Virus record (IMG/VR): IMGVR_UViG_3300002514_000266
Location: 1-23,499 of that record
Source: a virus
DNA length: 23,499 bases
Strand: one strand, 5' to 3'
This document shows positions 443-20,490 of this stretch, piece after piece. The position numbers and the translations under genes were made by a program. Within the stretch, counting starts at the first letter, position 1. Each line of letters begins with the position of its first letter. Below the pieces are notes generated by a model. The model ran no database searches. It was not told the origin of the DNA and worked only from the letters and a program-made list of their open reading frames with translations.

Positions 443-2161
443 ATGCCTACTAAGAAAGATAATTTTTTAAAAAGATATTTCACACAAAGGTCTGATCTAT
501 CAGGACCAATTTCAAGATCTGGCGATGGCTTCGGTGCTGCTGGTGCTATGGGTAGTGGAGATGGGTATAAAGAAAAAATAGGAAGGGAAAAGATACCGTG
601 GTATCTAAGCGACTTTAGAGGTCAACCATCTATGGCAGCGGACTCAGGATTCTCTTCAATAGTTATGTCAAGAGTAAATAAGGGAAGAGATGAAATTCAC
701 GATCCTAAGAGAATGTTTCCAGATCAAGATGTGAAAGATTCAGATGAGGAAGATAATTACTTATCAAGGGCTCAGCATAAAATGAAAGAATCATCACAAA
801 AATATTTTAATGAAAATCATATAGTAAAAAATTCCCAATATTCCCTATCAGAGTTGTCATCCCTTATGGGTGAAGATATTGACTGGGAAAGGTTTATACC
901 TGATCCCGTTGAAGACTTGGGATCAAGTATTTCAACAGGCATAAGTGATAACTGGAGATCATTAGTTCCCGACTCACTAGAAGATGAGGCCGAAGATGCT
1001 TACGAGTATGTATCAGATCTTTTATCACAGGCAGCCACCCAGGGAGAAGAGGCGTATGACTTACTTTCAGATAAGATAGATACTCTTACACAAGATTCTG
1101 AAACGTTTAGAGACGTTAAAGATATAGCAATGGAAGTCGGCAGAGACTTTATAGCACTAACTGCTGCTGGGATACCAGTAATCGGAACACCTCTTGCCGC
1201 CGCTTATGTTTTATACAATCTATCAGAGCTAGACGAAGGGCAAGAGCAGGCAAGAAGGTCTATAGATCTACTCTTGACTAATGGATCGTATGAAAATCTT
1301 GAAAATATGCAAAGAGTATCTGGCGATCTATTTGATGATTACATAGATCTTCTTCAGGCGTCGACATATCTTATTCCGTTTGTTGGAGTTGGAAGGGGAA
1401 TTGTTGGGACAGCGGGAAAGCTTTTAAATAGAACAAAAGCTACAACAGCAACTGCTTTTTTAGGCCTAACTGGTTCAAGTGTTCTAAAGTCTGCTATAAA
1501 ATCAGAAATACTGCTTAGTAATGTCTTTAAGATTGCAGCCAGGATGGCAAACTCAGACGTTGCTGACTCCCTAGGTTTAGACAAAACTTACTTTTTTGAT
1601 TCAATTGTTAAAATACCATCTACGCTAATAGTCATGGCAGATATTATAGAAGAGGCGATTAAGCAGTATGAATCATGGGAACAGTCAGGATCACATTCAC
1701 AATTTAGATTTAATCCCTCACCTCTTTCACTACAAAGAAGTGAAATTCAAAGTTCTGAAGAGAGGTTAGCAAGTGATGACTATTTGACAGGTATCGAAGA
1801 GTGGATAAGGTCTGTTTCTAGAGACGTTACAGATTCAGTCCTGGGATCAGGACCAGATATAACAATTGAGGCAAAAAAAATGAAAGATAATGAGAAGATA
1901 TTAAGAGCATTTATTAGAGAGTCAATCTATCATACTACAAGAACTGAGCTAGAAGCAAAACCAGCCGGATGGGAGTACAGAGTACCACCCACATCAGATG
2001 AAGATGATACATCTGCAATGGGATCAGGAAAAGATCTTGTTAATTTTAAAACAGACATGGGATATGCAAGCTATCAGTCAAGACCAGAGAATATAAAAGA
2101 ACAAGCGCTAAGACGAATTATTAGAAGAAAAATTAGAATTTCTGAGTCTAAAAAAAAGTAG
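443..2161 (+). CDS. Unknown 572-residue protein, possible virion or injected protein
   Basis: I do not recognise this gene. The N-terminal 230 residues are polar and acidic with Gly/Ser-rich patches. Residues about 235-260 and 307-350 contain hydrophobic, Ala/Gly-rich stretches that could insert in a membrane or form a hydrophobic core. The C-terminal part carries two related basic helices: ILRAFIRESI at 486-495 and ALRRIIRRKIRISES at 555-569. The second resembles the N-terminal tag of three other proteins in this window. The start has AGGAATAG upstream and lies 20 nt after the preceding stop. The stop directly follows a slippery A AAA AAG heptamer, and the -1 frame stays open for 73 codons, so a 645-residue form may exist. 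The hydrophobic segments and tag suggest a virion or ejection protein, but this is inference. Confidence 0.75.
   Translation: MPTKKDNFLKRYFTQRSDLSGPISRSGDGFGAAGAMGSGDGYKEKIGREKIPWYLSDFRGQPSMAADSGFSSIVMSRVNKGRDEIHDPKRMFPDQDVKDSDEEDNYLSRAQHKMKESSQKYFNENHIVKNSQYSLSELSSLMGEDIDWERFIPDPVEDLGSSISTGISDNWRSLVPDSLEDEAEDAYEYVSDLLSQAATQGEEAYDLLSDKIDTLTQDSETFRDVKDIAMEVGRDFIALTAAGIPVIGTPLAAAYVLYNLSELDEGQEQARRSIDLLLTNGSYENLENMQRVSGDLFDDYIDLLQASTYLIPFVGVGRGIVGTAGKLLNRTKATTATAFLGLTGSSVLKSAIKSEILLSNVFKIAARMANSDVADSLGLDKTYFFDSIVKIPSTLIVMADIIEEAIKQYESWEQSGSHSQFRFNPSPLSLQRSEIQSSEERLASDDYLTGIEEWIRSVSRDVTDSVLGSGPDITIEAKKMKDNEKILRAFIRESIYHTTRTELEAKPAGWEYRVPPTSDEDDTSAMGSGKDLVNFKTDMGYASYQSRPENIKEQALRRIIRRKIRISESKKK
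2152..2158 (+). other. Candidate -1 ribosomal frameshift site (A AAA AAG)
   Basis: The run of eight A at 2150-2157 followed by G gives zero-frame codons AAA AAA AAG TAG. The heptamer A AAA AAG is the slippery sequence used by E. coli dnaX. Slippage would pass the TAG at 2159-2161 and continue with GTA GAT AGT. A weak downstream pairing (TGAGC 2172-2176 with GCTCA 2198-2202) is the only nearby structure I see. A homopolymer miscall (true run of nine A) would produce the same picture. Confidence 0.45.
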
Positions 2162-2402: not shown

Positions 2403-2409
2403 ATCATTA

Positions 2410-2461: not shown

Positions 2462-2476
2462 AAGGAAAAAAATAAC

Positions 2477-3262: not shown

Positions 3263-3290
3263 GAAATCTTAAAATATTAGAAATATAAAT

Positions 3291-3321: not shown

Positions 3322-3349
3322 TGAACATATACTGTTTTTACTGTATATT
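3321..3349 (+). promoter_or_regulatory. Sigma70-like promoter for recA, with inverted repeat in the spacer
   Basis: TTGAAC (3321-3326) and TATATT (3344-3349) are separated by exactly 17 nt, directly after the terminator. The spacer holds an inverted repeat, ATATAC (3327-3332) and GTATAT (3343-3348), which could be a repressor site. The downstream leader is short, with GAGGAAGAA before the ATG at 3372. Confidence 0.55.
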
Positions 3350-3371
3350 AAATCATATTTTAGAGGAAGAA

Positions 3372-4538: not shown

Positions 4539-4539
4539 A

Positions 4540-5487
4540 ATGGACACATGTATAATTGTTGACGGATTAAACTTATTTACTAGACACTTTGTTGCAAATC
4601 CATCTACAAATCAGAACGGAGAGAGTGTAGGTGGTATTACTGGTACCGTCACTGCTATATCAAGACTTTCGGAAAGATTTAGCCCAGACAGAATTGTAGT
4701 CGTATGGGAATCTGGTGGGTCCTCGAGAAAGCGTGCAATTTTTCCAAACTATAAGTCAGGTAGAAGACCGCAAAGGCTTAATAGATACTACGGTGATGAC
4801 ATACCCGACACAGTTGAAAATAGAGACAACCAGTTAGAAATTCTAATATCAATTTTAAGAAATATGCCCATAGTTCAGATATACATTCCAGACTGCGAAG
4901 CAGATGATGTCATCGGGTATCTTTCAAAGTATACACTAAGAGAAATGAGAAAAGTAATTGTTTCATCAGATAAGGATTTTTATCAGCTTTTAGACAAGAA
5001 TACATTAATTTACTCACCTACATGGAAAAAGTTTGTTTCTTTTAAACAAGTTAGAGAAAAATTTGAAATATCTGCACAGAATTTCTGTCTTGGAAAATCA
5101 ATATGCGGCGACGTGTCAGATAATATTGACGGAATCAAAGGCGCAGGATTTAAAACTGTTGCAAAAAGGTTTCCAAGATTTAGGGAGGAAAATTTTTTTA
5201 CAATTTCTGAACTTATGGCTGAGTGTAGCAGGAAGATAGAAAGTGGCTCTAAGGTTAAGATATACAAGTCGATAATTGAAAATGAAGATGTCATAAGGCG
5301 AAACTGGAAATTAATTAATCTTGACACTAACAATTTATCACACAGCCAAATTGCTAAAATAGTAAATTCAATTGATACTTTTAGCCCTACACGAAATAAA
5401 ATGAATATATTGAAAATTTTTAAAAATCACGCAATTCAAAATATTGACGTAGATAGATTTTTTTTATCAATGAAATTACTCAAATAA
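4540..5487 (+). CDS. 5'-3' exonuclease / flap endonuclease (T4 RNase H-like)
   Basis: This 315-residue FEN/5'-nuclease probably removes RNA primers and 5' flaps at the replication fork. Visible are the N-terminal metal site VDGLNLFTR (D8), the CEADDVIGYLSK helix (E120, D122, D123), SSDKDFYQLL (D144, D146) and the helix-hairpin-helix region GDVSDNIDGIKGAGFKTVAKRF (D191, D194). The order and spacing are those of T4 RNase H and the Pol I 5'-nuclease domain. The position usually read FDG is VWESGG here. The gene is tightly coupled to recA upstream (1 nt gap) and the helicase downstream (10 nt gap). Confidence 0.88.
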   Translation: MDTCIIVDGLNLFTRHFVANPSTNQNGESVGGITGTVTAISRLSERFSPDRIVVVWESGGSSRKRAIFPNYKSGRRPQRLNRYYGDDIPDTVENRDNQLEILISILRNMPIVQIYIPDCEADDVIGYLSKYTLREMRKVIVSSDKDFYQLLDKNTLIYSPTWKKFVSFKQVREKFEISAQNFCLGKSICGDVSDNIDGIKGAGFKTVAKRFPRFREENFFTISELMAECSRKIESGSKVKIYKSIIENEDVIRRNWKLINLDTNNLSHSQIAKIVNSIDTFSPTRNKMNILKIFKNHAIQNIDVDRFFLSMKLLK

Positions 5488-5497
5488 GAGAAGGATA

Positions 5498-6868: not shown

Positions 6869-6897
6869 GTGTAATATTGACTTAAAGGAAAAAATCA

Positions 6898-9414
6898 ATG
6901 TTTACTTATGACAACGTATATGAATCAAGTCTAAAATATTTCAAGGGAGATTCTCTGGCTTCAAATGTTTTTTTAACGAAATATGCTTTAACTGGCAGAG
7001 ATGGTGATATTCTTGAAGAATGTCCAGAAGATATGCACAAAAGACTTGCAAAAGAGTTTGCTAGAGTAGAGAAAAAATACCCCAATCCTGTATCAGAAAG
7101 AGAAATTTTCTCCCTTTTGAAAGATTTCAAGTATATAATACCGCAGGGTTCACCTATGGCTGGTATTGGAAATAATAATCAGATACAGTCAATATCAAAC
7201 TGCTTTGTTGTCGAATCACCTCACGATTCTTATGGTGGAATTCTTAAGACAGACCAAGAGCTAGTTCAGATTGCCAAACGGCGAGGAGGTGTAGGTTTTG
7301 ACATATCCAATATTAGACCAAAGGGTATGACAACTGGGAATGCAGCAAGGACAACAGACGGAATTGAAGTTTTCATGGATAGATTTAGCAATTCATGTCG
7401 TGAAGTAGCCCAGGGAGGCAGACGCGGTGCATTAATGCTAACCATATCAGTCCACCATCCGCAGATAAAAGATTTTATAAAGATTAAAAGAGATCTATCA
7501 AGAGTTACAGGTGCAAATATATCAGTAAGAGTAACAGATGAGTTTATGAATGCTGTAAAAGAAAATGGTGAAGTTGGGCTTAGATGGCCTGTTGACTCCT
7601 CATCACCAAAAGTTACAAAGATCGAACAAGCTTCAGAAATATGGCACCTCTTAATTGAGTCAGCACATTCATCAGCAGAGCCTGGAATATTATTTTGGGA
7701 TACTGCTAAGTCAATGACACCTTCTGACATATACGAAAGTGAAGGCTTTGGATCTGTGTCAACAAACCCATGCGGTGAAATTATATTGTCGCCGTATGAT
7801 TCATGCAGGCTTATGCTTGTAAACTTGACTTCTTTTGTAAGAGACCCGTGGTCAGATAATGCTGAGTTTAACTTTGGCGATTTTGCATCAAAAGTTCAAA
7901 AAGCTCAGCGGTTAATGGATGACATGATCGATCTTGAAGTAGAGCAAGTAGACAAGATTATTCAAAAAATAGAGAATGATACTCAGCCTGAAAGTGTAAA
8001 AAAGATTGAGAAAGATCTATGGGAAAATATCAAGCTTCAAGCTGTCAATGGCAGAAGAACCGGTCTCGGGATAACTGGTCTGGGTGATACACTTGCAATG
8101 TTATCCATACGATACGGATCAAAGGAATCTATCAGAATAACAGAAGAAATATATAAGTGGCTTGCAATTAATTCTTACGAGTCATCTATTATCCTTGCAA
8201 AAGAAAGAGGGTCATTCCCAGCGTGGGATTCAGAAAAAGAAAAAGATCATCCGTTTATTTCAAGAATTGTAAGTGAGCTTCTACCCCACAGACAAGAAGA
8301 TTATGAAAAATATGGTAGAAGAAATATTGCAAATACTACAACAGCTCCTGCTGGGTCAGTATCAGTCCTTACACAGACAACATCTGGCATTGAGCCGGCA
8401 TTTATGCTTCACTATACACGACGTAAAAAGCTGACAGGTCAAGATTCAAGCGGAAGAGTAGATTTTGTAGATGATAGCGGTGATGAATGGCAAGAATATA
8501 CTGTGTATCATCATGGGTTTAAAAGATGGATGAAGCACATGTCCGAATCGGATCCTGATATCTTTATGGGTCTTTCAGATGATGAGATGGTATCAATGAG
8601 TCCATACACAAGGGCAACTGCTAGTGAGATTGACTGGATCTCGAAAGTAAAAATGCAGGCCGCTGCTCAAAAGTGGGTATGTCATGCAATATCAAATACA
8701 ACAAATCTACCCTCTGATGTTGATGTTGAAACTGTAAAGAAAGTTTATATGACAGGCTGGGAGCTTGGCTGCAAAGGAGTAACAGTATATCGCGATGGAA
8801 GTAGAGCTGGAGTTCTTGTATCTAGTGATAAAACATCGAAAAAGAAAGACCTATCCTTTAAAAGCAATCGTGCACCAAAGCGCCCAGAGATCCTGTCTTG
8901 TGAAATACATCAAGCTTCTGTTTCAGGAGAGCCGTGGACTATAATAGTAGGATTGATGCAAGGAAGGCCATACGAGATATTTGGGGGAAAATCTGAATAT
9001 GTTGAAATACCGAGAAAATATAAATCTGGATTTTTAACAAAAAAATCTAGAAAGACTATGAATTCAAAATATAATCTAAGCTTCGGCGAAGAAGGCGAAG
9101 AAATAATTGTAAGAGATATTGCAACTGTATTCGACAACCCAAATTATTCAGCATTTACAAGAACATTATCACTAGCATTACGACACGGAGCTCCTGTTAA
9201 CTATGTCTGTGAGCAACTTCAAAAAGATAGGGATGCAGATTTATTTAGTTTTTCAAAAGTAATAGCAAGATGTCTTAAAAAGTACATAGCAGATGGAACA
9301 AAGCCTGGAAACGGAACAATAGATTGTAACTGTGATAATGCAGAAGAGTGCGAAGTAGTATATCAAGAGGGATGTGCTACATGCCTTACATGTGGTTTTG
9401 CGAAATGCGGATAA
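6898..9414 (+). CDS. nrdJ: Ribonucleotide reductase, class II (adenosylcobalamin-dependent)
   Basis: This 838-residue enzyme reduces ribonucleotides to deoxyribonucleotides. The NPCGE block carries the thiyl-radical cysteine C292 and E294. C102 (SNCFVV) and C303 (DSCRLMLVNLTSF) are the likely redox pair, and the 11-residue C292-C303 spacing matches class II enzymes. Other family blocks are RRGGVGFDISNIRPKG and TTTAPAGSVSVLTQTTSGIEP. After the barrel comes a TSCPD-like segment (FTRTLSLALRHGAPV) and a Cys-rich tail, CATCLTCGFAKCG, expected to re-reduce the active site and bind metal. The domain set identifies NrdJ, which needs B12 but not oxygen or a small subunit. The start follows TTAAAGGAAAAAA. 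No intein or intron was seen. Confidence 0.94.
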   Translation: MFTYDNVYESSLKYFKGDSLASNVFLTKYALTGRDGDILEECPEDMHKRLAKEFARVEKKYPNPVSEREIFSLLKDFKYIIPQGSPMAGIGNNNQIQSISNCFVVESPHDSYGGILKTDQELVQIAKRRGGVGFDISNIRPKGMTTGNAARTTDGIEVFMDRFSNSCREVAQGGRRGALMLTISVHHPQIKDFIKIKRDLSRVTGANISVRVTDEFMNAVKENGEVGLRWPVDSSSPKVTKIEQASEIWHLLIESAHSSAEPGILFWDTAKSMTPSDIYESEGFGSVSTNPCGEIILSPYDSCRLMLVNLTSFVRDPWSDNAEFNFGDFASKVQKAQRLMDDMIDLEVEQVDKIIQKIENDTQPESVKKIEKDLWENIKLQAVNGRRTGLGITGLGDTLAMLSIRYGSKESIRITEEIYKWLAINSYESSIILAKERGSFPAWDSEKEKDHPFISRIVSELLPHRQEDYEKYGRRNIANTTTAPAGSVSVLTQTTSGIEPAFMLHYTRRKKLTGQDSSGRVDFVDDSGDEWQEYTVYHHGFKRWMKHMSESDPDIFMGLSDDEMVSMSPYTRATASEIDWISKVKMQAAAQKWVCHAISNTTNLPSDVDVETVKKVYMTGWELGCKGVTVYRDGSRAGVLVSSDKTSKKKDLSFKSNRAPKRPEILSCEIHQASVSGEPWTIIVGLMQGRPYEIFGGKSEYVEIPRKYKSGFLTKKSRKTMNSKYNLSFGEEGEEIIVRDIATVFDNPNYSAFTRTLSLALRHGAPVNYVCEQLQKDRDADLFSFSKVIARCLKKYIADGTKPGNGTIDCNCDNAEECEVVYQEGCATCLTCGFAKCG

Positions 9415-9445: not shown

Positions 9446-10048
9446 ATGCATTGGAAAAGTACAATATCACCTTTAATAAAAGAAATAGAGCTAAGAAAAT
9501 CTCCTCAAATAATAAGAGTAAATAAGTTCGATGAAAAGTCAGCAAAAGAATTTCAAGATCAAGTATCACTTGCGCACAACACAGGGCAAAAGGTAATTCC
9601 TGTTATCATCGATTCTTATGGCGGCCAAGTTTATTCGCTTATGGCAATGATAGCTACAATTAATGCATCTGAAATACCAATTGTAACAATTGTAGAGGGA
9701 AAGGCGATGTCTTGCGGTGCAGTCTTATTTTCATTTGGTGAACAGGGTCTAAGATTTATGGATCCCGATGCTACTATTATGATTCATGATGTTTCATCTA
9801 TGGATTTTGGAAAAGTTGAAGAGTTAAAAGCTAGCGCAGCAGAGGCAGATCGTCTAAATGATAAAATTTATACTATGATGGCTAGGAATTGCGGAAAGAA
9901 AGATGACTATTTTTTAAAAATTGTAGATAAGAAAAAGCATGCAGACTGGTTTTTAGATTCTAATGAAGCAAAGAAGCATGGAATGGCAAATCAGATAAGA
10001 GTTCCAAAGCTTTCAATAAGTGTAGATGTGTCAATAGACCTGGAGTAA
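9446..10048 (+). CDS. clpP: ClpP-family serine protease
   Basis: This 200-residue protein has the ClpP/crotonase fold. VIIDSYGGQVYSLMAM forms the oxyanion region, GKAMSCGAVL carries nucleophile S89, IMIHDVSS carries H114, and HADWFLDSNEAKKHGMANQI supplies the probable catalytic aspartate D167. Length is that of ClpP (about 200). No Clp ATPase is encoded nearby, so it may work with host ClpX/ClpA, or serve as a ClpP-fold maturation protease for head assembly, as in other phages. The gene lies between nrdJ and the endolysin, not in an obvious head-gene block. The start follows AAGAGGAAT. The triad is intact, so activity is likely. Confidence 0.87.
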   Translation: MHWKSTISPLIKEIELRKSPQIIRVNKFDEKSAKEFQDQVSLAHNTGQKVIPVIIDSYGGQVYSLMAMIATINASEIPIVTIVEGKAMSCGAVLFSFGEQGLRFMDPDATIMIHDVSSMDFGKVEELKASAAEADRLNDKIYTMMARNCGKKDDYFLKIVDKKKHADWFLDSNEAKKHGMANQIRVPKLSISVDVSIDLE

Positions 10049-10055: not shown

Positions 10056-11009
10056 ATGGATAAAGATTTTTATAACAAGTCTAGCTCCGATAGTTTAGGC
10101 TGGAAGCCTTCTTGGTTTGGATGCGAAGAATTTGACTTTAATTTAGTAAAAGCGGTCCAAAAATGGCAAAAAGCTCATGGATTAACCGGAGACGGTCTTG
10201 TTGGGCCAATGACATATAGAAGGATCTGGACAGAAAGGGAAGTCAGCATTTCAGACTATGAGCCTAGAAAAAACGATTATACTTCTTATGGCAATCATCA
10301 CATTGTTCACAATGGGAACTTTATCCCTATTGAATGGAATAAGGTTGTTCTATGGGATGAAAGAGATGGATTCAAGGCAAGCAAGGGATGCTATACTGAT
10401 TATTCTGGAAAACCTGATCGTGAACCGACAATGTTCGTGAACCATTGGGATGTATGTCTTAGTGCTGAGTCTTGTGCGACAGTTTTGAATAGGCGTGGAA
10501 TATCTGTCCATTTTCTTATAGACAATGATGGAACAATCTTTCAAATGCTAGATACGCAGCACAAGGCGTGGCATGCCGGAATCCCGAGGTATGAAGGTGG
10601 CAATACGAAGGGGATTGGGGTAGAGATTAGTAACGCGTATTATCCAAAGTACCAGGATTGGTATGTTCGAAAAGGCTTTGGTGAGCGACCACTTCAAGAA
10701 CATGGCTATGTTCATGGAAAAACCCTGGACCCATTTTTAGATTTTTATCCTGTCCAGCTTGAAGCTTTAAAAGCGCTATGGAAAGCTATTCATATTGGTA
10801 TTGGTATTCCGCTTGAGTATCCAAAGAATTCCAACGGGCATATCGAAACTAGCATCCACAAAGAATGCGAACGAGGAAAATTTCATGGAATATGTAACCA
10901 CTACAACTTTATCAAAACGAAAATTGATTGTGCTGGTCTTGATCTTCCTACTCTTTTAGATGAAGTAAAGAGAACACCGATGTATTGCCTGGATAAAAAT
11001 AGTGAATGA
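10056..11009 (+). CDS. N-acetylmuramoyl-L-alanine amidase with peptidoglycan-binding domain (endolysin)
   Basis: This 317-residue protein joins an N-terminal PG_binding_1-like repeat (VKAVQKWQKAHGLTGDGLVG, about 31-50) to an Amidase_2/T7-lysozyme-type catalytic domain. Likely zinc ligands are H130 (FVNHWD), H282 (ICNHYNF) and C292 (KTKIDCAG); the family lysine is K289 or K287. The motif KAWHAGIPRYEGGNTKGIGVEISN is characteristic. It should cleave the amide bond between MurNAc and the stem peptide for host lysis. No signal peptide is seen, so a holin or other export route is needed, and none was recognised here. It starts 7 nt after clpP and overlaps the next gene in an ATGA junction. Confidence 0.9.
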   Translation: MDKDFYNKSSSDSLGWKPSWFGCEEFDFNLVKAVQKWQKAHGLTGDGLVGPMTYRRIWTEREVSISDYEPRKNDYTSYGNHHIVHNGNFIPIEWNKVVLWDERDGFKASKGCYTDYSGKPDREPTMFVNHWDVCLSAESCATVLNRRGISVHFLIDNDGTIFQMLDTQHKAWHAGIPRYEGGNTKGIGVEISNAYYPKYQDWYVRKGFGERPLQEHGYVHGKTLDPFLDFYPVQLEALKALWKAIHIGIGIPLEYPKNSNGHIETSIHKECERGKFHGICNHYNFIKTKIDCAGLDLPTLLDEVKRTPMYCLDKNSE

Positions 11010-11869
11010 TAAATAATATGAATCTATCACTAGAAAGAATTATAGGGGATACACCGCTAGTAAAGATCTCAGATAAAATATACGGAAAGCTAGAAACATA
11101 CAGTCCATCTGGATCTGTAAAAGATAGAATGATTTCATATGTTGTCAAGAAATCAATCGACAGGGGTGAAATATCAGAAAATACTACACTTTGTGATGCA
11201 ACAAGCGGAAACACTGGGATAGCGCTAAGCATGATTGCTGCATCGCTTGGTTTAAAATGCGTTATTTTTATGCCATCTAACATGTCTGAAGAAAGAAAGA
11301 AAATGATGAAAATCTATGGTGCAAGAATTATAGACGCACCTGAAGATGATTTTGAAAGAGCGATTTCAATGAGGGATGAATTCATATCTGCGGGATCTAA
11401 TATATGGTCACCCATGCAGTTTAGCAATCTTGAAAACATAGAATGCCATGAGACAATTACAGGTCCGGAAATTCAAAATCAGATAACAAGTCGAGGCCTA
11501 GCATGGTCAGCATTTATTCATGGCTCAGGGACGGGCGGAACAATTGAAGGAGTTCGTAGATTTTTAAAAAATACACCTACAGAAATACACATGGTTGTTC
11601 CAGATGAATCACCGCATGGAATACAAGGGATCGGTGATGGAAAAGATTTCCTAGCCAATCCAGAAGAAATGGATGGTATCATAGTAATAAAAACAGAAGA
11701 TGCAATCATGCGAGCAAAAGACTTTGCAAGAGAAACTGGACTTCTAGTGGGTATCAGTTCTGGAGCTAATATACTTGCATCGGAAAAATATGTAGCTAAT
11801 AACTCTCCTGATGGGTCAGTTGTTACAATTCTATGTGATCGTGGTGAGCGGTATATGTCAATCTATTAA
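11006..11869 (+). CDS. PLP-dependent cysteine synthase-like enzyme (CysK/CysM family)
   Basis: This 287-residue protein belongs to the fold-type II PLP enzymes related to O-acetylserine sulfhydrylase. Seen are the Schiff-base lysine in SGSVKDRM (K39), the substrate loop TSGNTG (66-71), the phosphate-binding GSGTGGTIEG and the cofactor serine region VGISSGAN, then CDRGERYMS as in CysK/CysM. It is slightly shorter than bacterial enzymes (about 300-320). Such an enzyme would make cysteine from O-acetylserine and sulfide, or a related beta-replacement product. It is an unusual auxiliary gene in a phage. The start is at the ATGA overlap with the endolysin; ATG 11018 is an alternative, and neither has a strong ribosome site. 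The sulfotransferase follows. Confidence 0.88.
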   Translation: MINNMNLSLERIIGDTPLVKISDKIYGKLETYSPSGSVKDRMISYVVKKSIDRGEISENTTLCDATSGNTGIALSMIAASLGLKCVIFMPSNMSEERKKMMKIYGARIIDAPEDDFERAISMRDEFISAGSNIWSPMQFSNLENIECHETITGPEIQNQITSRGLAWSAFIHGSGTGGTIEGVRRFLKNTPTEIHMVVPDESPHGIQGIGDGKDFLANPEEMDGIIVIKTEDAIMRAKDFARETGLLVGISSGANILASEKYVANNSPDGSVVTILCDRGERYMSIY

Positions 11870-13748: not shown

Positions 13749-14384
13749 ATGATTATTACAGAGAAAAGGATAAGAGAAATTGTTCTCGAAGAAATTATAA
13801 GAGAGCAAGAAGAAGTCAATCAAGATTGTCCAATTCCATTTCTTGCTGCCATATTAGCCTCTGAAGCTCCCAATAGTGAAAGAGAGATGAGTGCCGTATA
13901 TGATGTTATTATGAAACGAGCAGAAATAGGCTTTAAAGAAGTAAATACGGTCGATGGACAATTAAGAGTTCCCAGGCAATTCTCTGGATATACAAGATTT
14001 AGACCAGACGATACTGCATTTATTGCATACTATAGTGGTACTGCTCCAGATTCTGAATATTCAGTTTCAGCAGATAGAGTAGAAACAGAGAAGCTTATAA
14101 GAAGAAATCAATTTAAAAGAGCATGTGGTGTAATAGTCTCAGATTTTCAAGATCCCGGTAACCCAGATGCACCTACATATGGAGCAACTCATTTTGTAAA
14201 TCCAAGAGCAGCATCGACAGATAACAAGTGGTGGGAACTAGATACGTTTAGACCGATTCCGATTAATAATGGATATATAGGTGATCATCTTTTTGGGTGG
14301 GACTTGACAACAAGACAGTCAAGAGAATCATATTTACAGTTTAGATCTAGCCATCCAGAATTTAGCAGTCTCTATCCGGATTAA
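13749..14384 (+). CDS. SleB-like cell wall hydrolase with N-terminal tag
   Basis: This 211-residue protein opens with the tag MIITEKRIREIVLEEIIREQ shared in pattern with the genes at 16766 and 20490(-). The remainder resembles the SleB/Hydrolase_2 family of lytic cell-wall enzymes: FLAAILASEA with a likely catalytic glutamate (E39), AVYDVIMKRA, a QFSGYTRF block, and YGATHFVNPRAAS followed by WW. These correspond to the family's ASE, VILNR, QFS and HA-x-x-x-P-x-W positions. It would cut peptidoglycan, and the tag suggests delivery in the virion for entry rather than lysis. It begins 8 nt after the nucleotidyltransferase and converges on the phosphoesterase gene with 3 nt between stops. Family call is by motif memory. 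Confidence 0.72.
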   Translation: MIITEKRIREIVLEEIIREQEEVNQDCPIPFLAAILASEAPNSEREMSAVYDVIMKRAEIGFKEVNTVDGQLRVPRQFSGYTRFRPDDTAFIAYYSGTAPDSEYSVSADRVETEKLIRRNQFKRACGVIVSDFQDPGNPDAPTYGATHFVNPRAASTDNKWWELDTFRPIPINNGYIGDHLFGWDLTTRQSRESYLQFRSSHPEFSSLYPD

Positions 14385-14393
14385 GCTTTAATC
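14379..14393. terminator. Small palindrome between convergent stop codons
   Basis: GATTAA (14379-14384) and TTAATC (14388-14393) pair around the loop GCT. Both convergent genes end in this stem with TAA stops. With six mostly AT pairs and no T-run it could at best be a weak bidirectional terminator. Confidence 0.2.
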
Positions 14394-15047
14394 TTCAAAT
14401 TTTCTCAGCCTGGCAACACCATCTGTCACAGTAACATACGTCTGGTGTGTAACCCAGTCGCCTGCATTGATATATGTTTTAATATTCTGATCTTCGTCAA
14501 CCCATATTAAAGCTTCTGGTATGTGTGTATGACCCATAATAAACACATCAACTTTGGGATGGTGTCTAAGAATATTTATAATTGATCTTAGCTTGTGCTT
14601 CTTAATTTGAATTTCCGTCCACCATGTTGTAAAGTCAAAGTTAAAAGTGAATTCAAGTATATTTTGAATAACAGATAGAAATTTAACAAATACTCTATTT
14701 GCAAGAGCACCCTTGTCGTAAGAATCGCCGTGTTCAACTCTAAACACTCGGCCTTCATCTTCAAAGTCATACCTTTTAACAAATTCAACACCCATTATTT
14801 TTTTACCAACAACTCCCATTAAACCTTCGTCATGATTTCCAACTACATAGATAATTCTTTTTGCATCACCCATTTTTTCAAGTATCTGAAGACATCTTTC
14901 TGTAAAGACAGGTATCTTTATAAAATCTATAATATCACCAGCGAGAACAAGCTCATCACAATCCTCAGACTCTAAAAATGATAAAAGCTCGAGAGACTTA
15001 TAGAACCTAGTCCCAATATGTGTATCAGATATAATAACTCTTTTCAT
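14388..15047 (-). CDS. Calcineurin-like metallophosphoesterase (LpxH/UDP-diacylglucosamine hydrolase-like)
   Basis: This 219-residue protein has all dimetal phosphoesterase motifs: SDTHIG (D8, H10), LAGDIIDF (D38), VGNHDE (N71, H72), EHGD and MGHTHIPE, ending with YINAGDWV. Among this superfamily the layout is closest to LpxH-like UDP-2,3-diacylglucosamine pyrophosphatases, which act in lipid A synthesis. A phage copy could instead hydrolyse nucleotides or phosphoproteins. It is one of only two genes on the minus strand. It begins next to a divergent AT-rich region shared with the gene at 15141 and converges on the SleB-like gene. All catalytic residues are present, so activity is likely, but the substrate is uncertain. 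Confidence 0.85.
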   Translation of the reverse strand: MKRVIISDTHIGTRFYKSLELLSFLESEDCDELVLAGDIIDFIKIPVFTERCLQILEKMGDAKRIIYVVGNHDEGLMGVVGKKIMGVEFVKRYDFEDEGRVFRVEHGDSYDKGALANRVFVKFLSVIQNILEFTFNFDFTTWWTEIQIKKHKLRSIINILRHHPKVDVFIMGHTHIPEALIWVDEDQNIKTYINAGDWVTHQTYVTVTDGVARLRKFED

Positions 15048-15140
15048 TGAACAGTTTGCTAACCTTATATTAATATTATATACAGAACTACAAGGTGTAC
15101 TATACTTGTGTTACTGAAGTTTAAAAATAAAGGAAAAAAA
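15048..15140. promoter_or_regulatory. Divergent intergenic region with -10-like hexamers on both strands
   Basis: The 93-nt AT-rich gap separates divergent genes, so it should hold promoters both ways. On the + strand TATACT lies at 15101-15106; on the - strand TATAAT reads from 15080 back to 15075. No clear -35 boxes are visible. The AAAGGAAAAAAA ribosome site of the next gene is at its right end. Confidence 0.3.
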
Positions 15141-15383
15141 ATGACAGATACAAAAAACACATCAATGGCTTTTAGCGATGAGGTAATTGGACAAATTGCA
15201 AAACTAGTCCAACTAGCAATTATTACAGGGACAGATATTGTTGATAATTTAAGGATGATGCGTGTAACTCTTGATGGAGAAACTGATGTTCTTACACTAA
15301 CTGAAGAATATCGTGAAATATCAGAGGCTCAGGTTGAAAAGCTTATGCAAGAAGTAGAGGCACTTCAATCAGAAGAGGTGTAA
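15141..15383 (+). CDS. Small unknown helical protein (80 residues)
   Basis: This 80-residue protein has no assigned function. Residues 11-45 (FSDEVIGQIAKLVQLAIITG, then TDIVDNLRMMRV) form an amphipathic helical region. The second half is acidic, with a predicted helix in EAQVEKLMQEVEAL. I chose ATG 15141 because AAAGGAAAAAAA is immediately upstream; the frame extends to a GTG at 15108 without a ribosome site. The gene is first in a run of nucleotide-metabolism genes and ends 3 nt before the dUTPase-like gene, so the two are probably translated together. It could be an accessory or regulatory subunit. Confidence 0.75.
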   Translation: MTDTKNTSMAFSDEVIGQIAKLVQLAIITGTDIVDNLRMMRVTLDGETDVLTLTEEYREISEAQVEKLMQEVEALQSEEV

Positions 15384-15386
15384 GCT

Positions 15387-15758
15387 ATGGAAGATAGACT
15401 CTTAGAAATATTTAGGAGAAGAGAATCTTTTATGAAGAGCCTTGGTGATTCTTCCGGAGAATCTATGAACTGGCCACTTGATTTATCAAAAAAAGAAAAT
15501 CAGCAACATGTCAGGGATATGGCACTAAGAGGTGTCGAAGAGATGTTTGAAGCACTTCAGCATTTAAAAAACTGGAAACCTCATCGGAAAACAGAAATAA
15601 CTGAATTTGATAGAGAAGAATTTCTTGAAGAGATTGTAGATGCATTTAATTATTTTCTATCGATTCTTGTCCTTACAGGATTTGATGATAATGATTTAAT
15701 TGATGCATACAGAAGAAAAGACAAGATTATAAATGAAAGATTGAGGACTGGATATTGA
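15387..15758 (+). CDS. All-alpha NTP pyrophosphatase (dimeric dUTPase/MazG-like)
   Basis: This 123-residue protein shows the all-alpha NTP pyrophosphohydrolase pattern: RGVEEMFEALQHLKNWK with acidic residues E51, E52 and E55, then EEFLEEIVDAFNYFLSIL with E82-x-x-D85, and a closing helix DAYRRKDKIINERL. The ALQHLKNWKPHRKTE segment resembles dimeric dUTPases, in which such residues form the uracil/phosphate pocket. It would hydrolyse dUTP or another non-canonical dNTP to the monophosphate, feeding thymidylate synthesis. Its stop overlaps the TTG start of the next gene (TTGA), and that gene begins with a second domain of the same fold. Confidence 0.78.
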   Translation: MEDRLLEIFRRRESFMKSLGDSSGESMNWPLDLSKKENQQHVRDMALRGVEEMFEALQHLKNWKPHRKTEITEFDREEFLEEIVDAFNYFLSILVLTGFDDNDLIDAYRRKDKIINERLRTGY

Positions 15759-16666
15759 AAGTTAAAAAGCTATTTGAAGATCAGAATTATTTTTCAAAGA
15801 TGATAGGTACTGTGTGTAACACATCAGAAGATCTTGATAACTTTACAAAAACCCTATCTCTTGCACTTCATAAAGAAGTAAGTGATCTTGTATCTGCTAC
15901 TAACTATAGATCTCACACTGATGATAGTATGGTTCCAGATGCAGACAAGATACTTTTTGAATCAGTAGATGTAATTAGATATGCAGTAGCTATAATGAAT
16001 GCGTGGAGCATAACTCCTGAAAAATTTCAAAAAGCATGGATACTAAAGGACAAGTATCTTTCACTTTCAAGAAAGATTGAAGGAAATACTTGGAAAGGGG
16101 AAAAAGTTGCAATTGTTGATATGGACGATGTTCTTTGTGAGTTTAGAGTAGGATTTTCAAATTGGCTAAATAAAAACTACAGCGTTATAACTGATGTAGA
16201 ATCAAAAGAGTATTATTTTATTAATGCTCTTGAAAAAGCAGGTATAAACCCAGAGGGAATATTTTTAAAATTTGTATCTGAAGATGGATTCTCATCTTTA
16301 AAGCCAGCATCCGGTGCAATAGATTTTATTAAATCTCTTCAGGAGAAAGGTTATTTTATTCATATATTGACTGCAAGGCCAGGAGATAATCTAAGATGTC
16401 TTTATAATACACTTGACTGGCTTGACTCAAACAATGTCTGCTTTGACAAGGTTAGCTTCTCATCAGAAAAACTGAGATGGTGCATGCAATCAGAATACTG
16501 GTCATCAGGTGCAATAGAGTTTGCAATAGATGATTCACCTAAACATGCAGCAGAATATGCAAAACATGATATAAGAGTTCTTTTGCCAAGAAAGACTTAT
16601 AATACAGAGGTTCAAAGTCTTTCAAATGTAATTGTCTATGATTCTTTCCTAGATATTGATATTTAA
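15755..16666 (+). CDS. MazG-like pyrophosphatase fused to HAD-type 5'-nucleotidase
   Basis: This 303-residue protein appears to be a two-domain fusion. Residues about 10-108 resemble the all-alpha NTP pyrophosphatase fold: LALHKEVSDLVSATNYRSH (E41, D44) and FESVDVIRYAVAIMNAW (E69, D72). Residues about 117-303 are a HAD phosphatase with VDMDDVLCEF (nucleophile D122, D124), ILTARPGD and FAIDDSPKHAAEYA, like the 5'(3')-deoxyribonucleotidase (NT5C) group. In sequence the domains could take a dNTP to dNMP and then to deoxynucleoside. The start is TTG 15755, overlapping the previous stop, with GAGG 10 nt upstream; ATG 15800 is an alternative but would cut into the first domain. Confidence 0.8.
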   Translation: MKVKKLFEDQNYFSKMIGTVCNTSEDLDNFTKTLSLALHKEVSDLVSATNYRSHTDDSMVPDADKILFESVDVIRYAVAIMNAWSITPEKFQKAWILKDKYLSLSRKIEGNTWKGEKVAIVDMDDVLCEFRVGFSNWLNKNYSVITDVESKEYYFINALEKAGINPEGIFLKFVSEDGFSSLKPASGAIDFIKSLQEKGYFIHILTARPGDNLRCLYNTLDWLDSNNVCFDKVSFSSEKLRWCMQSEYWSSGAIEFAIDDSPKHAAEYAKHDIRVLLPRKTYNTEVQSLSNVIVYDSFLDIDI

Positions 16667-16693
16667 TTTATCCAATGATTAAGAATTTTCTGC

Positions 16694-16729
16694 AGCAGTT
16701 GAATAATTAAACATGTTAACTGCTATAAT
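16694..16729 (+). promoter_or_regulatory. Promoter with embedded 7-bp inverted repeat before 16766
   Basis: TTGAAT (16699-16704) and TATAAT (16724-16729) are 19 nt apart, and the -10 is extended (TGCTATAAT). An inverted repeat AGCAGTT (16694-16700) and AACTGCT (16718-16724) covers both boxes, as an operator would. The leader is about 30 nt and ends in ATAGAGGAAAAG before the ATG. Confidence 0.45.
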
Positions 16730-16765
16730 TGTAGAAATAAATTTATTAACGAAATAGAGGAAAAG

Positions 16766-17698
16766 ATGAAGCTAACTCAAAAATCTTTAAAGAAAATTAT
16801 TCTTAGCGAGCTTAGAAGGTCCATATCAGAACAAGCACGAGATGCGGGTGACGTCCCCGGGGGCCAGGCACCAGCACGAGGCACCCAAGCCTATGCTGAC
16901 AGCCAGAGAGAAATATGGGGTGTCTCTGATGAAGATCTCGAAAGAGAGCGCATCCAGAAACAGGCAGACGAGCGAGGAATATCTTTTGAAGAAATGGAGG
17001 CTATTCTTGCTCATATGGATTCCCCAGAGTACCGCAGAGAACAATACCTAAGACAGCAAGAACAGGCACGTGCCCATGCACGGGATGAAGGAAACTGGCC
17101 TGAGCCAAGGACTGGCAATATGTATGAAATCATTGGTGATCCACACAGCGTTGATATTCAAAACGGATTGAAGTGGTTGTGGCTTGGTGCAGTCCGGGAC
17201 TCTAAGGTTTTGGAAGGTGTTGCTAAACAGTTCACCCCTAGAGTTCCAGCTGAGGGTGAGTACTTGGCAGGTTTTTCTTCTCCGATGTGGGCATTGGTTG
17301 ATCACAGGGACGAAAATGGTGTATATACACAGCTTGTCACTCAGCCCGTGGGTGAGAGGCGAAGAGGCGCAGAGATATGCAGAATCACCGTCGAATACAT
17401 TATGAAAGTATCGGGCGATCAAGTAGATTGTGAAATGGCATGGAACAGTGATATGGTTAGACCAGGTAGCCAGCTTGCGCGAATGATGGACGCAGCAGTT
17501 CAGGCAGTAAATGGTTCATCAGCTTCTTTCCCTGCATCGCTAAAATTCTTTCCTGATGGACGAACTGAGGGAGCAAACGCAGAAGTTCCAGCCTCAGAAG
17601 ACGAAGTACCGGTTGCAATTCTTGAATTCACAGGAGGCGAGGTTGTGGCGCTGGTCAACATGGACTTCGGTTTTCGCGTTAGCCCATATGCTCGATAA
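16766..17698 (+). CDS. Unknown protein with N-terminal tag, GC-richer than its neighbours
   Basis: I do not recognise this 310-residue protein. It opens with MKLTQKSLKKIILSELRRSI, the same pattern as the SleB-like and the minus-strand metallopeptidase genes, followed by ISEQ. Residues about 25-110 are charged and low-complexity (Arg/Glu/Gln/Ala, probably disordered or coiled). From about 115 on there is a compact-looking domain rich in aromatics and beta-prone segments (NGLKWLWLGAVRDSKVLEGV, EICRITVEYIMKVSGDQVDC). Base composition is clearly higher in GC than in adjacent genes (a 60-base stretch near 16861 is about 60 percent GC), with more CGA/CGC codons. This suggests recent acquisition. 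It has its own promoter-like region. The tag suggests a virion cargo protein. Confidence 0.75.
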   Translation: MKLTQKSLKKIILSELRRSISEQARDAGDVPGGQAPARGTQAYADSQREIWGVSDEDLERERIQKQADERGISFEEMEAILAHMDSPEYRREQYLRQQEQARAHARDEGNWPEPRTGNMYEIIGDPHSVDIQNGLKWLWLGAVRDSKVLEGVAKQFTPRVPAEGEYLAGFSSPMWALVDHRDENGVYTQLVTQPVGERRRGAEICRITVEYIMKVSGDQVDCEMAWNSDMVRPGSQLARMMDAAVQAVNGSSASFPASLKFFPDGRTEGANAEVPASEDEVPVAILEFTGGEVVALVNMDFGFRVSPYAR

Positions 17699-17784
17699 TA
17701 GACTGACAAATTATGAACACTTCGCATTGTTTTTTTCATAGTTGAGTTTTTTTATATTGTAAACTTTAATTTCTTGCTGTATTG

Positions 17785-17792
17785 TATAAATG
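17785..17792 (+). promoter_or_regulatory. TATAAATG box before the secreted-protein gene
   Basis: The 112-nt gap 17699-17810 is T-rich and has no clear terminator. TATAAATG at 17785-17792 could serve as a -10 or a T4-late-like box, with TTGCTG at 17774-17779 upstream. The same octamer stands before 12952. Confidence 0.25.
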
Positions 17793-17810
17793 TAAAGCAC
17801 AGGAGGAAAT

Positions 17811-18239
17811 ATGTTTCGTTTTACCCTACTCACGCCCCTACTTTTTTCACTCTCAGCATACGGAGATATTCCACCAGATAATATTCGCATTGAATCTACT
17901 CTGGTTGGAAATGCTCCTATAGAGATTCCTGAGAGTGATTGCTCTTCTCCCATTTCAAACTCTATTGTTAAGTTTTTAGATACGGGATCAATGTGCATTG
18001 AAGGTGTTCGTGCCCATATTGATGGAAGAGGTTGTAATACAATTTTCTGGGAAAGGGGTTCTGATAATGAATATATCTTCTTTTGCAAGACAAGAGATAC
18101 ATGTGATATTACTCATGTAGGAAGATTTATTGCATACCCGACTTCACTTCCCGCACCTGAGATTTATTCTAGAAATCCTGCTATTTGCGAAGATTCAAAT
18201 TATATTATTTTTCATGAACAAAATAATGTTAGTGAATAA
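17811..18239 (+). CDS. Small secreted Cys-rich protein of unknown function
   Basis: This 142-residue protein starts with a clear signal peptide: MFRFTLLTPLLFSLSAYG has a positive residue, a hydrophobic core and small residues near a likely cleavage after residue 18. The mature part has six cysteines (ESDCSS, GSMCIEG, GRGCNTI, FFCKTRDTCDI, PAICEDS), an even number consistent with disulfide bonds outside the cytoplasm. It has a perfect AGGAGG ribosome site (17801-17806), the strongest in the window, so high expression is likely. A lipobox is absent. I recognise no family. Export to the periplasm fits a superinfection-exclusion, envelope-modifying or spanin-like role, but this is only inference. 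Confidence 0.72.
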   Translation: MFRFTLLTPLLFSLSAYGDIPPDNIRIESTLVGNAPIEIPESDCSSPISNSIVKFLDTGSMCIEGVRAHIDGRGCNTIFWERGSDNEYIFFCKTRDTCDITHVGRFIAYPTSLPAPEIYSRNPAICEDSNYIIFHEQNNVSE

Positions 18240-18269
18240 AATTAACTAGCGTTAAATATAGGAATACAG

Positions 18270-19256
18270 ATGCCAAAAAATAAAAACTTAGAACCAGTTA
18301 CTTTTCCAATGAAGATTAGATTTGACGAGGATCCGAGCACTGAGTTTAAGAATGATCTTGAATCAATTAATATTTCACTACTAGACCATCCCGACCCGCT
18401 TAGGGCAAGAAGGATGGTGTACCAATTTATTAATGCAACATGGGAAGATGAGCCCGGTCTTCACAATCCAGACGATGTAGATGACTGGAAGCTTTTTCAA
18501 GCACTAGAAGCTGCGCTTCAGTTCAAAGCTTTGCCTACAGTCTTGGAGACGCTTGATTTTACATTTAGAATTGAAGGAATCGATGTCCAGACAGTTACAC
18601 ATTTAATTCGGCATAGAACAGGATCTTTCTCTGCTCAGTGTACAGGAGACAGGTGGCAATCTCATGCAAATGCATTAGTTCCCGGTCCCATTCAGAATAG
18701 TCCTGAGATTTATGAAAGATGGAAAAGTCTAGTTGTTGAGTCAAAGAAGCTTTATTGTGACATGATTGATACAAGGAAGATTTCGATTATGGATGCACGA
18801 ACAATTCTTCCAAAGTGTCTCGAGACACATTATTACGCACGCTTTAATATGAAAGATCTTCTAAACTTTATTAGACAAAGAATGGATAAGCAAATTCAGC
18901 CAACAACTGACAATATTATTGCATATCAGATGTACTTAGCCGTTGCAAGAATATTTCCAGAAGTTACAACAGTCGTGAATATGCACTCACCTTCGAGACA
19001 TTATGTTGCTACTGCAAGAACCGGAAAGGCAACAAATCTTTATTTTCCAGATAAAGATTCTGATTCGTTTGACTGGCACCCTAATGACTTTATCTACTCA
19101 GCATATCGCGATGAAGTAAATGGTACAGACCCAGATCTCGGCGGAAGAGAAAACTTTAAATTTTCAGAATTGGCATCAATGTACGATAGACAGGTCAATG
19201 ACCTTGTAGAAAAGTACAATGAGTGGAAAGAAACTGTCGGATTTGAATCACCATAG
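18270..19256 (+). CDS. thyX: ThyX-like flavin-dependent thymidylate synthase, divergent signature
   Basis: This 328-residue protein resembles ThyX, which methylates dUMP to dTMP with FAD and methylene-tetrahydrofolate. It keeps IEGIDVQTVTHLIRHR (R114, H115, R116), the DARTILP block and a FNMKDLLNFIRQR helix like the family N-x-R-x-L-x-x-F-x-x-x-R. However, the signature RHR-x7-S reads RHRTGSFSAQC (C124 replaces S; the usual N-E pair is S-A), and the AQ-x-E-I block reads KQIQPTTDNI. It is longer than typical ThyX (220-260) because of added N- and C-terminal segments. It may be an active phage variant with altered nucleotide contacts or an enzyme with a different uracil modification. The dUTPase-like gene nearby would supply dUMP. 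Confidence 0.75.
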   Translation: MPKNKNLEPVTFPMKIRFDEDPSTEFKNDLESINISLLDHPDPLRARRMVYQFINATWEDEPGLHNPDDVDDWKLFQALEAALQFKALPTVLETLDFTFRIEGIDVQTVTHLIRHRTGSFSAQCTGDRWQSHANALVPGPIQNSPEIYERWKSLVVESKKLYCDMIDTRKISIMDARTILPKCLETHYYARFNMKDLLNFIRQRMDKQIQPTTDNIIAYQMYLAVARIFPEVTTVVNMHSPSRHYVATARTGKATNLYFPDKDSDSFDWHPNDFIYSAYRDEVNGTDPDLGGRENFKFSELASMYDRQVNDLVEKYNEWKETVGFESP

Positions 19257-19264
19257 GCGAAAAA

Positions 19265-19681
19265 ATGTCTTTTTCAGATTCATTTAGCATGATTGAATCA
19301 TGGCTTTTTGAAAAGGATTATGAAGTCTTGTACGAGACTGATGGTCAAGATGCTGTTTATTTTGGCTGTAAGCAAATTATTCTTAACAGTAGAAACCATA
19401 TTGAAAAGAGACTATATATACTTTTGCACGAATGTGGTCACATACTAATAAATAGCAACTCTTTCGACAGGGTATTTTCCCTTAGCAGCGAAACAGAAGC
19501 TATAATGGGCGGTAGAAAAGTTTCTAGAAAAAGAAGAGTTGCAAAGCTAACAGAGGAAATTGAAGCCTGGAAACGAGGTGAGAATCTTGCAAGAAGGCTT
19601 GGGATAGAAATAAATGAAGAAAAGTTTGATAGAATACGTGCGAATGCTATTATGAGCTATATCGAATGGGCAAGAGATTAG
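19265..19681 (+). CDS. ImmA/IrrE-like metallopeptidase
   Basis: This 138-residue protein contains LYILLHECGHILINS with the zinc motif HECGH (H55, E56, H59), typical of the ImmA/IrrE family. IrrE-like proteins cleave or sense regulators; ImmA cleaves a mobile-element repressor. A downstream acidic ligand may lie in TEEIEAWKRGENLARRLGI. No fused helix-turn-helix is present, so it is a stand-alone peptidase. It starts 8 nt after the ThyX-like gene and its stop overlaps, by 3 nt, the stop of a minus-strand metallopeptidase. Its target could be a host or phage repressor, but nothing in the window identifies it. Confidence 0.75.
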   Translation: MSFSDSFSMIESWLFEKDYEVLYETDGQDAVYFGCKQIILNSRNHIEKRLYILLHECGHILINSNSFDRVFSLSSETEAIMGGRKVSRKRRVAKLTEEIEAWKRGENLARRLGIEINEEKFDRIRANAIMSYIEWARD

Positions 19682-20490
19682 CTCACTGAATGTTTAATAT
19701 TTGTGTAGAGCTTAGTTAGAAATTTCTCTAGAGATTTTCTATCATTCTTTAATGTTTCTTTATATCTGGAAACTATTCCAGCAAGATCAGAGTCTTGCCT
19801 TTTGATAAGTGAAAGCGCTTCTTCTTGCGTGTATTTATCTAAAAGCTGCTCAGATGCTTCATATGCAAATGCATCAATTTCATTATGAAGGCTAAGGTAG
19901 TCTTCCTGCGTTCCGCCTTTTGACAACTGCTTGGGATCGTTCTGTAGTTCTTCCCATGCCTCTTCTTCACTAATCCCTTTGCTTTCTGCCTGTTTCTTAA
20001 GTTGATTATAGTGAACTAGTTCATGGTTGATAGTTCGTGATATTATCTTTGATAGCTCTGTAGAGTCTAAGTCATCCATATCATACTCATCAGAGTAGGG
20101 TCTAAACTCAAGCCATATAATGTGTTTCCCATTTTCAGGACCTCTGTATTGACCTCTCATCATCCAGTTGCTAGGATATCCTCCATATTCATCTCCCGGT
20201 CCTAAAGTATATAGCTCATTATCTGTAACACTGAGGAAAAAATATAGATCTGTACCAAGATCACTAGCAGATGTATTTAGTGCATCCATAAGAGTTTCAA
20301 TTGCAGGAGTTGACCAGGTCGACTCATCAACAAGATCTACATCATTTTCATTGTGAGCCATTTCCCAAAACTTAGAATCGACAATTCCTTGAAAAATAGC
20401 TGATGTCAATTCTTTATCAGGTGCTGTTGATTCACACAGCAAGATCTCTTCCTTGATGATCTGTCTTAATTGCCTGCGTGTGATTTTCAT
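19678..20490 (-). CDS. Zinc metallopeptidase-like protein with N-terminal tag
   Basis: This 270-residue protein begins with the tag MKITRRQLRQIIKEEILLCE, followed by S. LLCES fits the [L/I]-x-E-[A/G/S] cleavage pattern of T4-type head proteases. The zinc motif is SRTINHELVHYNQL (H156, E157, H160), with a probable third ligand in LHNEIDAFAYEA, as in gluzincin-type enzymes. The N-terminal half before the motif is acidic and unrecognised. The gene is on the minus strand, convergent with another HExxH gene and divergent from the deoxyribosyltransferase-like gene. Packaged in the virion, it could act on host proteins after injection; this is inference from the tag. Function beyond a probable peptidase is unknown. 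Confidence 0.72.
   Translation of the reverse strand: MKITRRQLRQIIKEEILLCESTAPDKELTSAIFQGIVDSKFWEMAHNENDVDLVDESTWSTPAIETLMDALNTSASDLGTDLYFFLSVTDNELYTLGPGDEYGGYPSNWMMRGQYRGPENGKHIIWLEFRPYSDEYDMDDLDSTELSKIISRTINHELVHYNQLKKQAESKGISEEEAWEELQNDPKQLSKGGTQEDYLSLHNEIDAFAYEASEQLLDKYTQEEALSLIKRQDSDLAGIVSRYKETLKNDRKSLEKFLTKLYTNIKHSVS

Follow-up and report, generated by a model that had tools for sequence, protein, structure and literature searches.

A putative capsid-targeting propeptide on unrelated proteins of T4-superfamily phages

The internal proteins of phage T4 are made with propeptides of 10–19 residues that target them and are then removed, and the T4 prohead protease gp21 cleaves after L/I-x-E; the T4 protein Alt undergoes C-terminal processing too (excerpted text of PMC9026906). 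In phage P1, the first 30 residues of DarB carry a reporter to the head (excerpt of PMC9024508), and in the giant phage SPN3US and its relatives the prohead protease removes N-terminal propeptides of head proteins (excerpt of PMC5694885). The subject of the present study is a short N-terminal segment, hereafter the tag, which begins three proteins encoded in the 23,499-base virus record IMGVR_UViG_3300002514_000266 (the whole stretch analysed, called the window; positions refer to it unless another contig is named) and many proteins of other phage records. With a probability of roughly 0.78, judging from sequence comparisons, the tag would be a capsid-targeting propeptide of T4-superfamily phages, serving for the docking of cargo and its cutting by a gp21-type protease. 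In the proposed mechanism, a short charged N-terminal segment, probably a helix, would dock unrelated cargo onto the prohead scaffold or core during head assembly; a gp21-type protease would cut after [LI]-x-E, about 18–24 residues in, the cut would free the cargo inside the maturing head, and the freed cargo would probably be injected along with the DNA. The docking on the core, the cleavage, the presence in the virion and the injection are proposed by analogy with T4.

The window is part of a T4-superfamily phage contig of about 160 kb. Its polymerase gene has an identical copy on a 160,346-base IMG/VR contig, labelled G001 (labels of this form denote phage records), where the remaining window genes follow in the same order, at the window position plus 90,319. 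As in the T4 capsid-targeting sequence (CTS) of IPI, IPII and IPIII and in the Alt propeptide, the tag is a short N-terminal segment present on several different proteins (six strong copies on G001), it ends in a gp21-type L/I-x-E (in 6/6 strong G001 tags and in 83 of 139 tagged proteins overall), and it occurs in a phage with gp20/gp21/gp23-type head genes, since G001 encodes both a gp21-family protease and a T4-type head. The sequence of the tag, in contrast, is unrelated to that of T4: MKTYQEFIAEA of T4 scores -38 on the tag profile. The tag is also several residues longer (predicted 18–24 versus 10–19), occurs on up to 32 genes per contig and in gene arrays, has a relative on head-module genes, and is accompanied on some cargo by a C-terminal motif of scaffold-like proteins. 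Kinship with the T4 CTS at the level of sequence was considered and ruled out by profile scores of -38 to -40; because the T4 sequence is unlike the tag, the tag is regarded as CTS-like in its working, and descent from the CTS is not claimed.

The capsid-targeting signal of P1 DarB shares the N-terminal position of the tag but is described, in the excerpt cited above, for one very large protein. SPN3US-type head and ejection proteins likewise carry N-terminal propeptides cut by the prohead protease, but these mostly exceed 100 residues, and the excerpted account describes no one short motif across many cargos. Six forms of the motif core were not found in the literature searched, with subscription papers and preprints lying outside that search; further literature listings name no such tag in marine phages, and one regular expression revealed no T4-style tags in Pelagibacter phage HTVC008M.

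Recurrence of the tag on unrelated proteins

The consensus of the tag is M-K-I-T-x-x-x-L-R-x-I-I-K-E-E-[LI]. In the window, it begins the proteins encoded from 13749 on the plus strand (MIITEKRIREIVLEEIIREQ), from 16766 on the plus strand (MKLTQKSLKKIILSELRRSISEQ) and from 20490 on the minus strand (MKITRRQLRQIIKEEILLCES). A preliminary description of this DNA had proposed a 16-residue N-terminal tag on these proteins, followed in each by [I/L]-x-E-[Q/S]; all three tags were found in place, they align without gaps to the motif given there, and the following residues are IRE/Q, ISE/Q and LCE/S, respectively (the slash marks the predicted cut). The description had also held that the proteins are otherwise different, and as far as they were compared they are unrelated, having no Pfam family in common; a tblastn search with the 13749 and 16766 proteins against 12 records returned their own genes only. 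The third claim, selection at the protein level, agrees with the codons used, since tag positions with the same residue often differ in codon within one genome (56/125 comparisons in G001, 280/699 in G061 and 316/697 in G017); the differing fraction is 0.40–0.55 across the six genomes compared, and in each of them conservation of the tag is lowest at third codon positions.

The tag was also searched for in the rest of the genome and in related phages, and further copies were found both in G001 and in other records. Just downstream of the window, G001 carries three more strong tags, on proteins of 443, 310 and 1025 residues, which brings the strong tags of G001 to six; each ends in [LI]xE (IRE/Q, ISE/Q, LCE/S, LQE/S, LRE/A and LKE/D). 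A tag profile of 17 columns, ending at residue 18, matched 68 of 9,384 open reading frames (ORFs) of 12 phage records at the threshold of 10 bits and none in three within-ORF shuffles; 16 of the 68 had served as training rows for the profile, and some of these records had also supplied the loci of other training rows. The numbers of tags per record range down from 13 in G017 and 12 in G061 through 9 in G047, 8 each in G006 and G042, 6 in G001 and 5 in G043 to 3 in G013 and the lower values given below.

A DNA pattern covering residues 1–16 (MKIT...LR.II.EE[LI] and near forms) matched at least 120 stretches in viral contigs versus 3 stretches on 2 contigs in bacterial and archaeal genomes; the tag is phage-specific. 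Both genomes of the bacterial and archaeal collection that bear the tag also encode a T4-type protease, one of them on the same contig of 305,838 bases. This phage-like contig, binned into a Methylococcaceae metagenome-assembled genome (MAG) and scanned over all but its last 838 bases, contains 32 tags (0 in the shuffled null), including 14 consecutive tagged genes on one strand within 6.5 kb (1398–7910 of locus L425), which are mostly different behind the tag. Another contig with tagged genes (L423, PBIO01000025.1, 101,404 bases) is binned into a Halobacteriovorax MAG and is likely a mis-binned phage; the tag set includes an IMG/VR record equal to it in length. The pattern set was drawn from 80 of the at least 120 stretches (95 proteins), and the non-redundant set used below comprises 139 tagged proteins (66 from the profile scan and 73 from the pattern), left from 163 after the removal of near-duplicates.

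The cargo behind the tag is mostly unrelated and varies from phage to phage. The 137 cargo regions that could be clustered, 2 of the 139 being too short, fall into 130 clusters, a count partly produced by construction because near-duplicates had been removed first. A Pfam (E-value 0.01) and PHROG (E-value 0.001) scan of the 78 tagged proteins of at least 110 residues revealed no family matching more than one of them, and the majority were without any match; the matches include L,D-transpeptidase, AAA_33, polynucleotide kinase, tRNA-ligase phosphodiesterase and HD hydrolase, as well as a cell-wall hydrolase, which was below its cut-off. The window protein from 13749 has a weak cell-wall-hydrolase match (PF07486, E-value 0.0044, 18.1 bits, cut-off 27). 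The metallopeptidase-like protein from 20490 has homologues in five related contigs, all with HExxH, and the G005 and G006 copies clearly retain the tag; H156, E157 and H160 are invariant across the six aligned sequences. Its model, made with six sequences, has a mean predicted local distance difference test (pLDDT) score of 73, and a comparison with the PDB gave nothing at an E-value of 0.001 or below (best E-value 0.53; a zincin-like entry was 12th, E-value 3.1), so the enzyme class is assigned from HExxH alone; a sequence search against the PDB likewise gave nothing useful. In models of the 13749 protein and of the metallopeptidase-like protein, the tag appears as a helix, spanning residues 5–22 and 5–23, where pLDDT is below about 55, so that the helix is a guess; the model of the 13749 protein, made without relatives, has a pLDDT of 37 and was set aside.

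In capsid and protease, Microcystis phage Mel-JY01 and Flavobacterium phage immuto (vB_FspM_immuto) are among the cultured phages closest to G001, and immuto, whose host is the environmental strain LMO8, is the one cultured phage found to carry the tag. Its record is 160 kb long; over the first 150 kb, the unshifted profile gave nothing above 4, because immuto gene 190 (immuto35A_190) lacks two residues (MKKSQLRQIIKEALDAS); with a shift of 2, this gene scores 32.3. Two different immuto proteins, encoded by the genes at 111631 and 25470 of MW353176, have the common N-terminus MKKQILSEQF.RMQ.LAGIITES, which is perhaps another packaging tag.

The site after the tag and the T4-type head

An [LI]xE with its E at residues 18–24 is present in 83/139 tagged proteins, while shuffling gave a mean of 13.5 and a maximum of 26 (2000 shuffles). 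With E at residues 20–24, the count is 59/139 (expected 9.0, standard deviation 2.8, maximum 20 in 2000 shuffles), and this enrichment is nearly free of selection, because the pattern covers residues 1–16 and the profile ends at residue 18. Neither [LI]x[DQ] at 20–24 (6/139 versus 11.0 expected) nor [LI]xK at the same place is enriched. The residue that follows is A, S or G in 45/83 cases, compared with 28/173 where [LI]xE lies beyond residue 30 in these same proteins (Fisher p 1e-9). Capsid ORFs were examined from 24 records; at a position matched to the T4 gp23 site by eye, each of the 25, which represent 20 distinct sequences, carries L-[RKD]-E followed by S, A, Q, T or V, and LLRE/QSS of the G001 capsid resembles IIRE/QEE of the window protein from 13749. 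As far as sequence can indicate, the post-tag [LI]xE has the specificity of T4 gp21 and resembles the major-capsid sites of these phages themselves.

Profile searches clearly indicate a T4-type head module on G001, with a portal protein (Portal_T4 PF07230, E-value 8.2e-79), a prohead protease (Peptidase_S77 PF03420, E-value 1.6e-25, 90.2 bits versus the curated cut-off of 27) and a major capsid protein (Gp23 PF07068, E-value 2.6e-76). The gene order is portal, one further gene, protease, small genes, scaffold-like gene and capsid; the scaffold-like gene is so labelled only by its place between protease and capsid, and a profile search found no family above cut-off for it. Both by its profile match and by its scaffold-like and capsid neighbours, the G001 protease is a T4 gp21-type prohead protease. 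The preliminary description had compared the tag with the T4 cargo signal and assumed another head protease; the assumption was wrong, since the phage encodes a PF03420 protease, and the comparison is supported by the cleavage-site statistics of the 139 proteins, by the association with the protease, and by the head-module relative and the scaffold-like C-terminal motif described below.

The association was assessed on 50 tag-bearing records, the larger ones among those that gave the at least 120 stretches. The PF03420 protease was detected in 31/50 and, among tag-bearing records of at least 120 kb, in 14/14, with the Gp23 capsid in 13/14. Control records selected by a ThyX motif (of 120, 80 were listed, and the 17 of these with 80 kb or more were taken) contain the protease in 4/8 cases at 120 kb or more and in 5/17 overall, and the tag pattern, with 2 mismatches allowed, in 1/17. 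Of 15 polymerase-related records, 3 have the protease, all larger than 100 kb, and the 12 smaller ones do not. In the 19 tag-bearing records lacking a detected protease, neither a T4-type portal nor an HK97-type capsid was found, although this portal search matched nowhere; these records are probably fragments, since the two other head proteins were not found either.

Head-module relatives of the tag and C-terminal motifs

Within 4.2 kb downstream of the protease at 33 loci, 22 of 265 ORFs score at least 4 bits on the cargo profile versus 0.2 in shuffled sequences, and these ORFs are spread over 15/33 loci. A gene of about 130–155 codons downstream of the protease begins with the tag-related motif LK.[IL][IV]KEC..E. 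The pattern M..LK.[IL][IV]KEC..E.. finds it at a small gene in 26/33 loci, within 1.7 kb of the protease, and in 7 of 6,295 ORFs of 13 whole contigs, every one beside the protease; this pattern and W..LAG[ILM], used below, were written after examples had been seen. Eight of the 26 relatives, like MKMTRNELKDLVKECLVEILSEG, keep the register of the cargo tag to within one residue and end in L-x-E/G or L-x-E/S; another 5 are shifted by two or more residues or extended at the N-terminus, and in the remaining 13 a shift is combined with a KP insertion. By eye, G001 gene 48 and G037 also have the first of these forms, which the pattern did not pick up there in the locus scan. In several genomes, a second small gene downstream of the protease begins like MKLTSQLLRRIIEEEVAKF. 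The T4 core genes 67 and 68 are located between portal and protease.

W..LAG[IL], or a sequence close to it, forms the C-terminus of the scaffold-like proteins in 9/13 records, and also that of the N-tagged proteins of 1025 residues (G001) and 1026 residues (G006) and of two others. As a C-terminal motif, W..LAG[ILM] occurs in 13 ORFs versus 0.25 expected (5,361 ORFs), and on L423 a gene for a 152-residue protein ending EKWQRLAGILK adjoins the tagged genes. The end of the T4 scaffold is unlike W..LAGI. Possibly, this tail is a second core-binding signal, as its sharing by scaffold-like and tagged proteins suggests.

A copy of the tag near the C-terminus of a 572-residue window protein had also been noted in the preliminary description. 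The copy is real, LRRIIRRKIRISES being 7th of the 50,137 nine-residue windows of G001 on the tag profile, outranked by four cargo tags and by two other windows, of which one falls within gene 49, a small gene of the head module, and the other lies where gene 40 begins; it is weaker than the N-terminal tags, with the conserved E14-E15 pair absent and I-S-E/S retained. It is partly conserved, since the 45%-identical G006 homologue ends in EEALRRIVRRKIQEQKKRS, keeping LRRIVRRKI and I-Q-E/Q. The segment is possibly a targeting or processing segment and is a weaker part of the case. Two weaker tag-like segments lie at residues 348 and 487 of the same protein. A search of viral contigs with peptide patterns found relatives of the 13749, 16766 and 572-residue proteins on the parent contig only, and such a search overlooks relatives, as the G006 homologue demonstrates.

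Coordinates of the tagged genes, their tags and the C-terminal segments
Feature	Position	Strand	Remark
572-residue protein with C-terminal tag-like segment	443..2161	+	
C-terminal tag-like segment LRRIIRRKIRISES of the 572-residue protein	2108..2149	+	possible cut ISE/S
Tag, residues 1-19 of the 211-residue cell-wall-hydrolase-like protein	13749..13805	+	predicted cut IRE/Q
Tagged cargo gene, 211 residues	13749..14384	+	weak, sub-threshold match to Cell Wall Hydrolase (PF07486)
Tag, residues 1-22 of the 310-residue protein	16766..16831	+	predicted cut ISE/Q
Tagged cargo gene, 310 residues	16766..17698	+	no family found
Tag, residues 1-20 of the 270-residue metallopeptidase-like protein	20431..20490	-	predicted cut LCE/S
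Tagged cargo gene, 270 residues	19678..20490	-	HExxH and downstream conserved EIDA; metallopeptidase by motif only
W..LAG[IL] in scaffold-like and N-tagged proteins	G001 62705-64156 and 117316-120393		outside the window (L031, L034)

Two further features of the window were observed. The guanine and cytosine content of 17001–18000 is 44.5%, versus 31.5–40.1% in the other 1-kb bins; this stretch covers most of the 16766 gene and the DNA following it and is perhaps a recent acquisition. At 9446–10048 and 11006–11869, a ClpP-like protease gene and a cysteine-synthase-like gene were recognised by eye among replication genes.

Alternative readings and biological meaning

Several observations weigh against the tag being a capsid-targeting propeptide. 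The tag counts are uneven, with 2 in G008, 1 each in G015 and G052 and 0 in G010; an [LI]xE at 18–24 is missing from 56/139 tagged proteins and from 15/32 of those on the 305-kb contig; and just 8/26 loci have the head-module relative within one residue of the tag's register. IPI–III of T4, which score -38 to -40 on the tag profile, reach no better than -25 with shifts. The 19/50 tag-bearing records without a detected protease include G063, which has Gp23, and no protease was seen on G006, probably a fragment, whose 48 kb contain 8 tags. In G001, a crude count of upstream words and of sites resembling TATAAATA gave no common late-promoter motif upstream of the tagged genes.

The tagged proteins could instead be scaffold or core components, the tag binding the core and the proteins being degraded or lost and not delivered to the host. 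The tag relative on small genes beside the protease, next to which the T4 core genes 67 and 68 lie, and the two tagged proteins that end like scaffold-like proteins are in line with this, but cargo differing among phages to the extent of 130 clusters in 137 regions is unlike a conserved structural core, its enzyme-like domains (L,D-transpeptidase, P-loop/polynucleotide kinase, HD hydrolase) speak against such a role, and a single site near the N-terminus suggests release over shredding; we consider this explanation unlikely. Localisation signals often take the shape of a short, charged N-terminus that forms a helix, and the cargo may include wall-active enzymes, so the tag might send proteins elsewhere in the cell, to the membrane, the replication compartment or the host polymerase, with [LI]xE as incidental helix composition. 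This seems less probable still, as it leaves unexplained the E-specific site with A, S or G after it, the association with the protease and the head-module relative. Very improbably, the tag has no function in the protein and is left over from the duplication of gene starts, or acts at the nucleotide level as a signal of translation or recombination: tagged genes often stand in arrays, as duplications would give (the 14 consecutive genes of L425), but codons differ in 40–55% of the within-genome comparisons, the third positions are the least conserved, and the remainder of each tagged protein is mostly unrelated.

If the tag is a capsid-targeting propeptide, as the site, the protease and the head-module relative suggest, large uncultured sea phages most likely use it to load unrelated proteins into the head for injection. 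Perhaps, and here the odds are somewhat below even, the N-terminal tag, sometimes joined by the W..LAGI tail, constitutes a modular head-loading code that would let any captured gene be packaged and injected, so that the tagged arrays would represent a fast-changing injected arsenal readable from uncultured genomes. As a rule, what a phage carries in its head and injects becomes known only when a cultured phage is analysed by proteomics; a recognisable targeting tag would predict this internal cargo for many uncultured T4-superfamily phages together. The tag would add a natural packaging signal to those of T4 and P1, and the cargo it predicts consists mostly of unknown proteins, which may counteract host defences or bring the cell under phage control.

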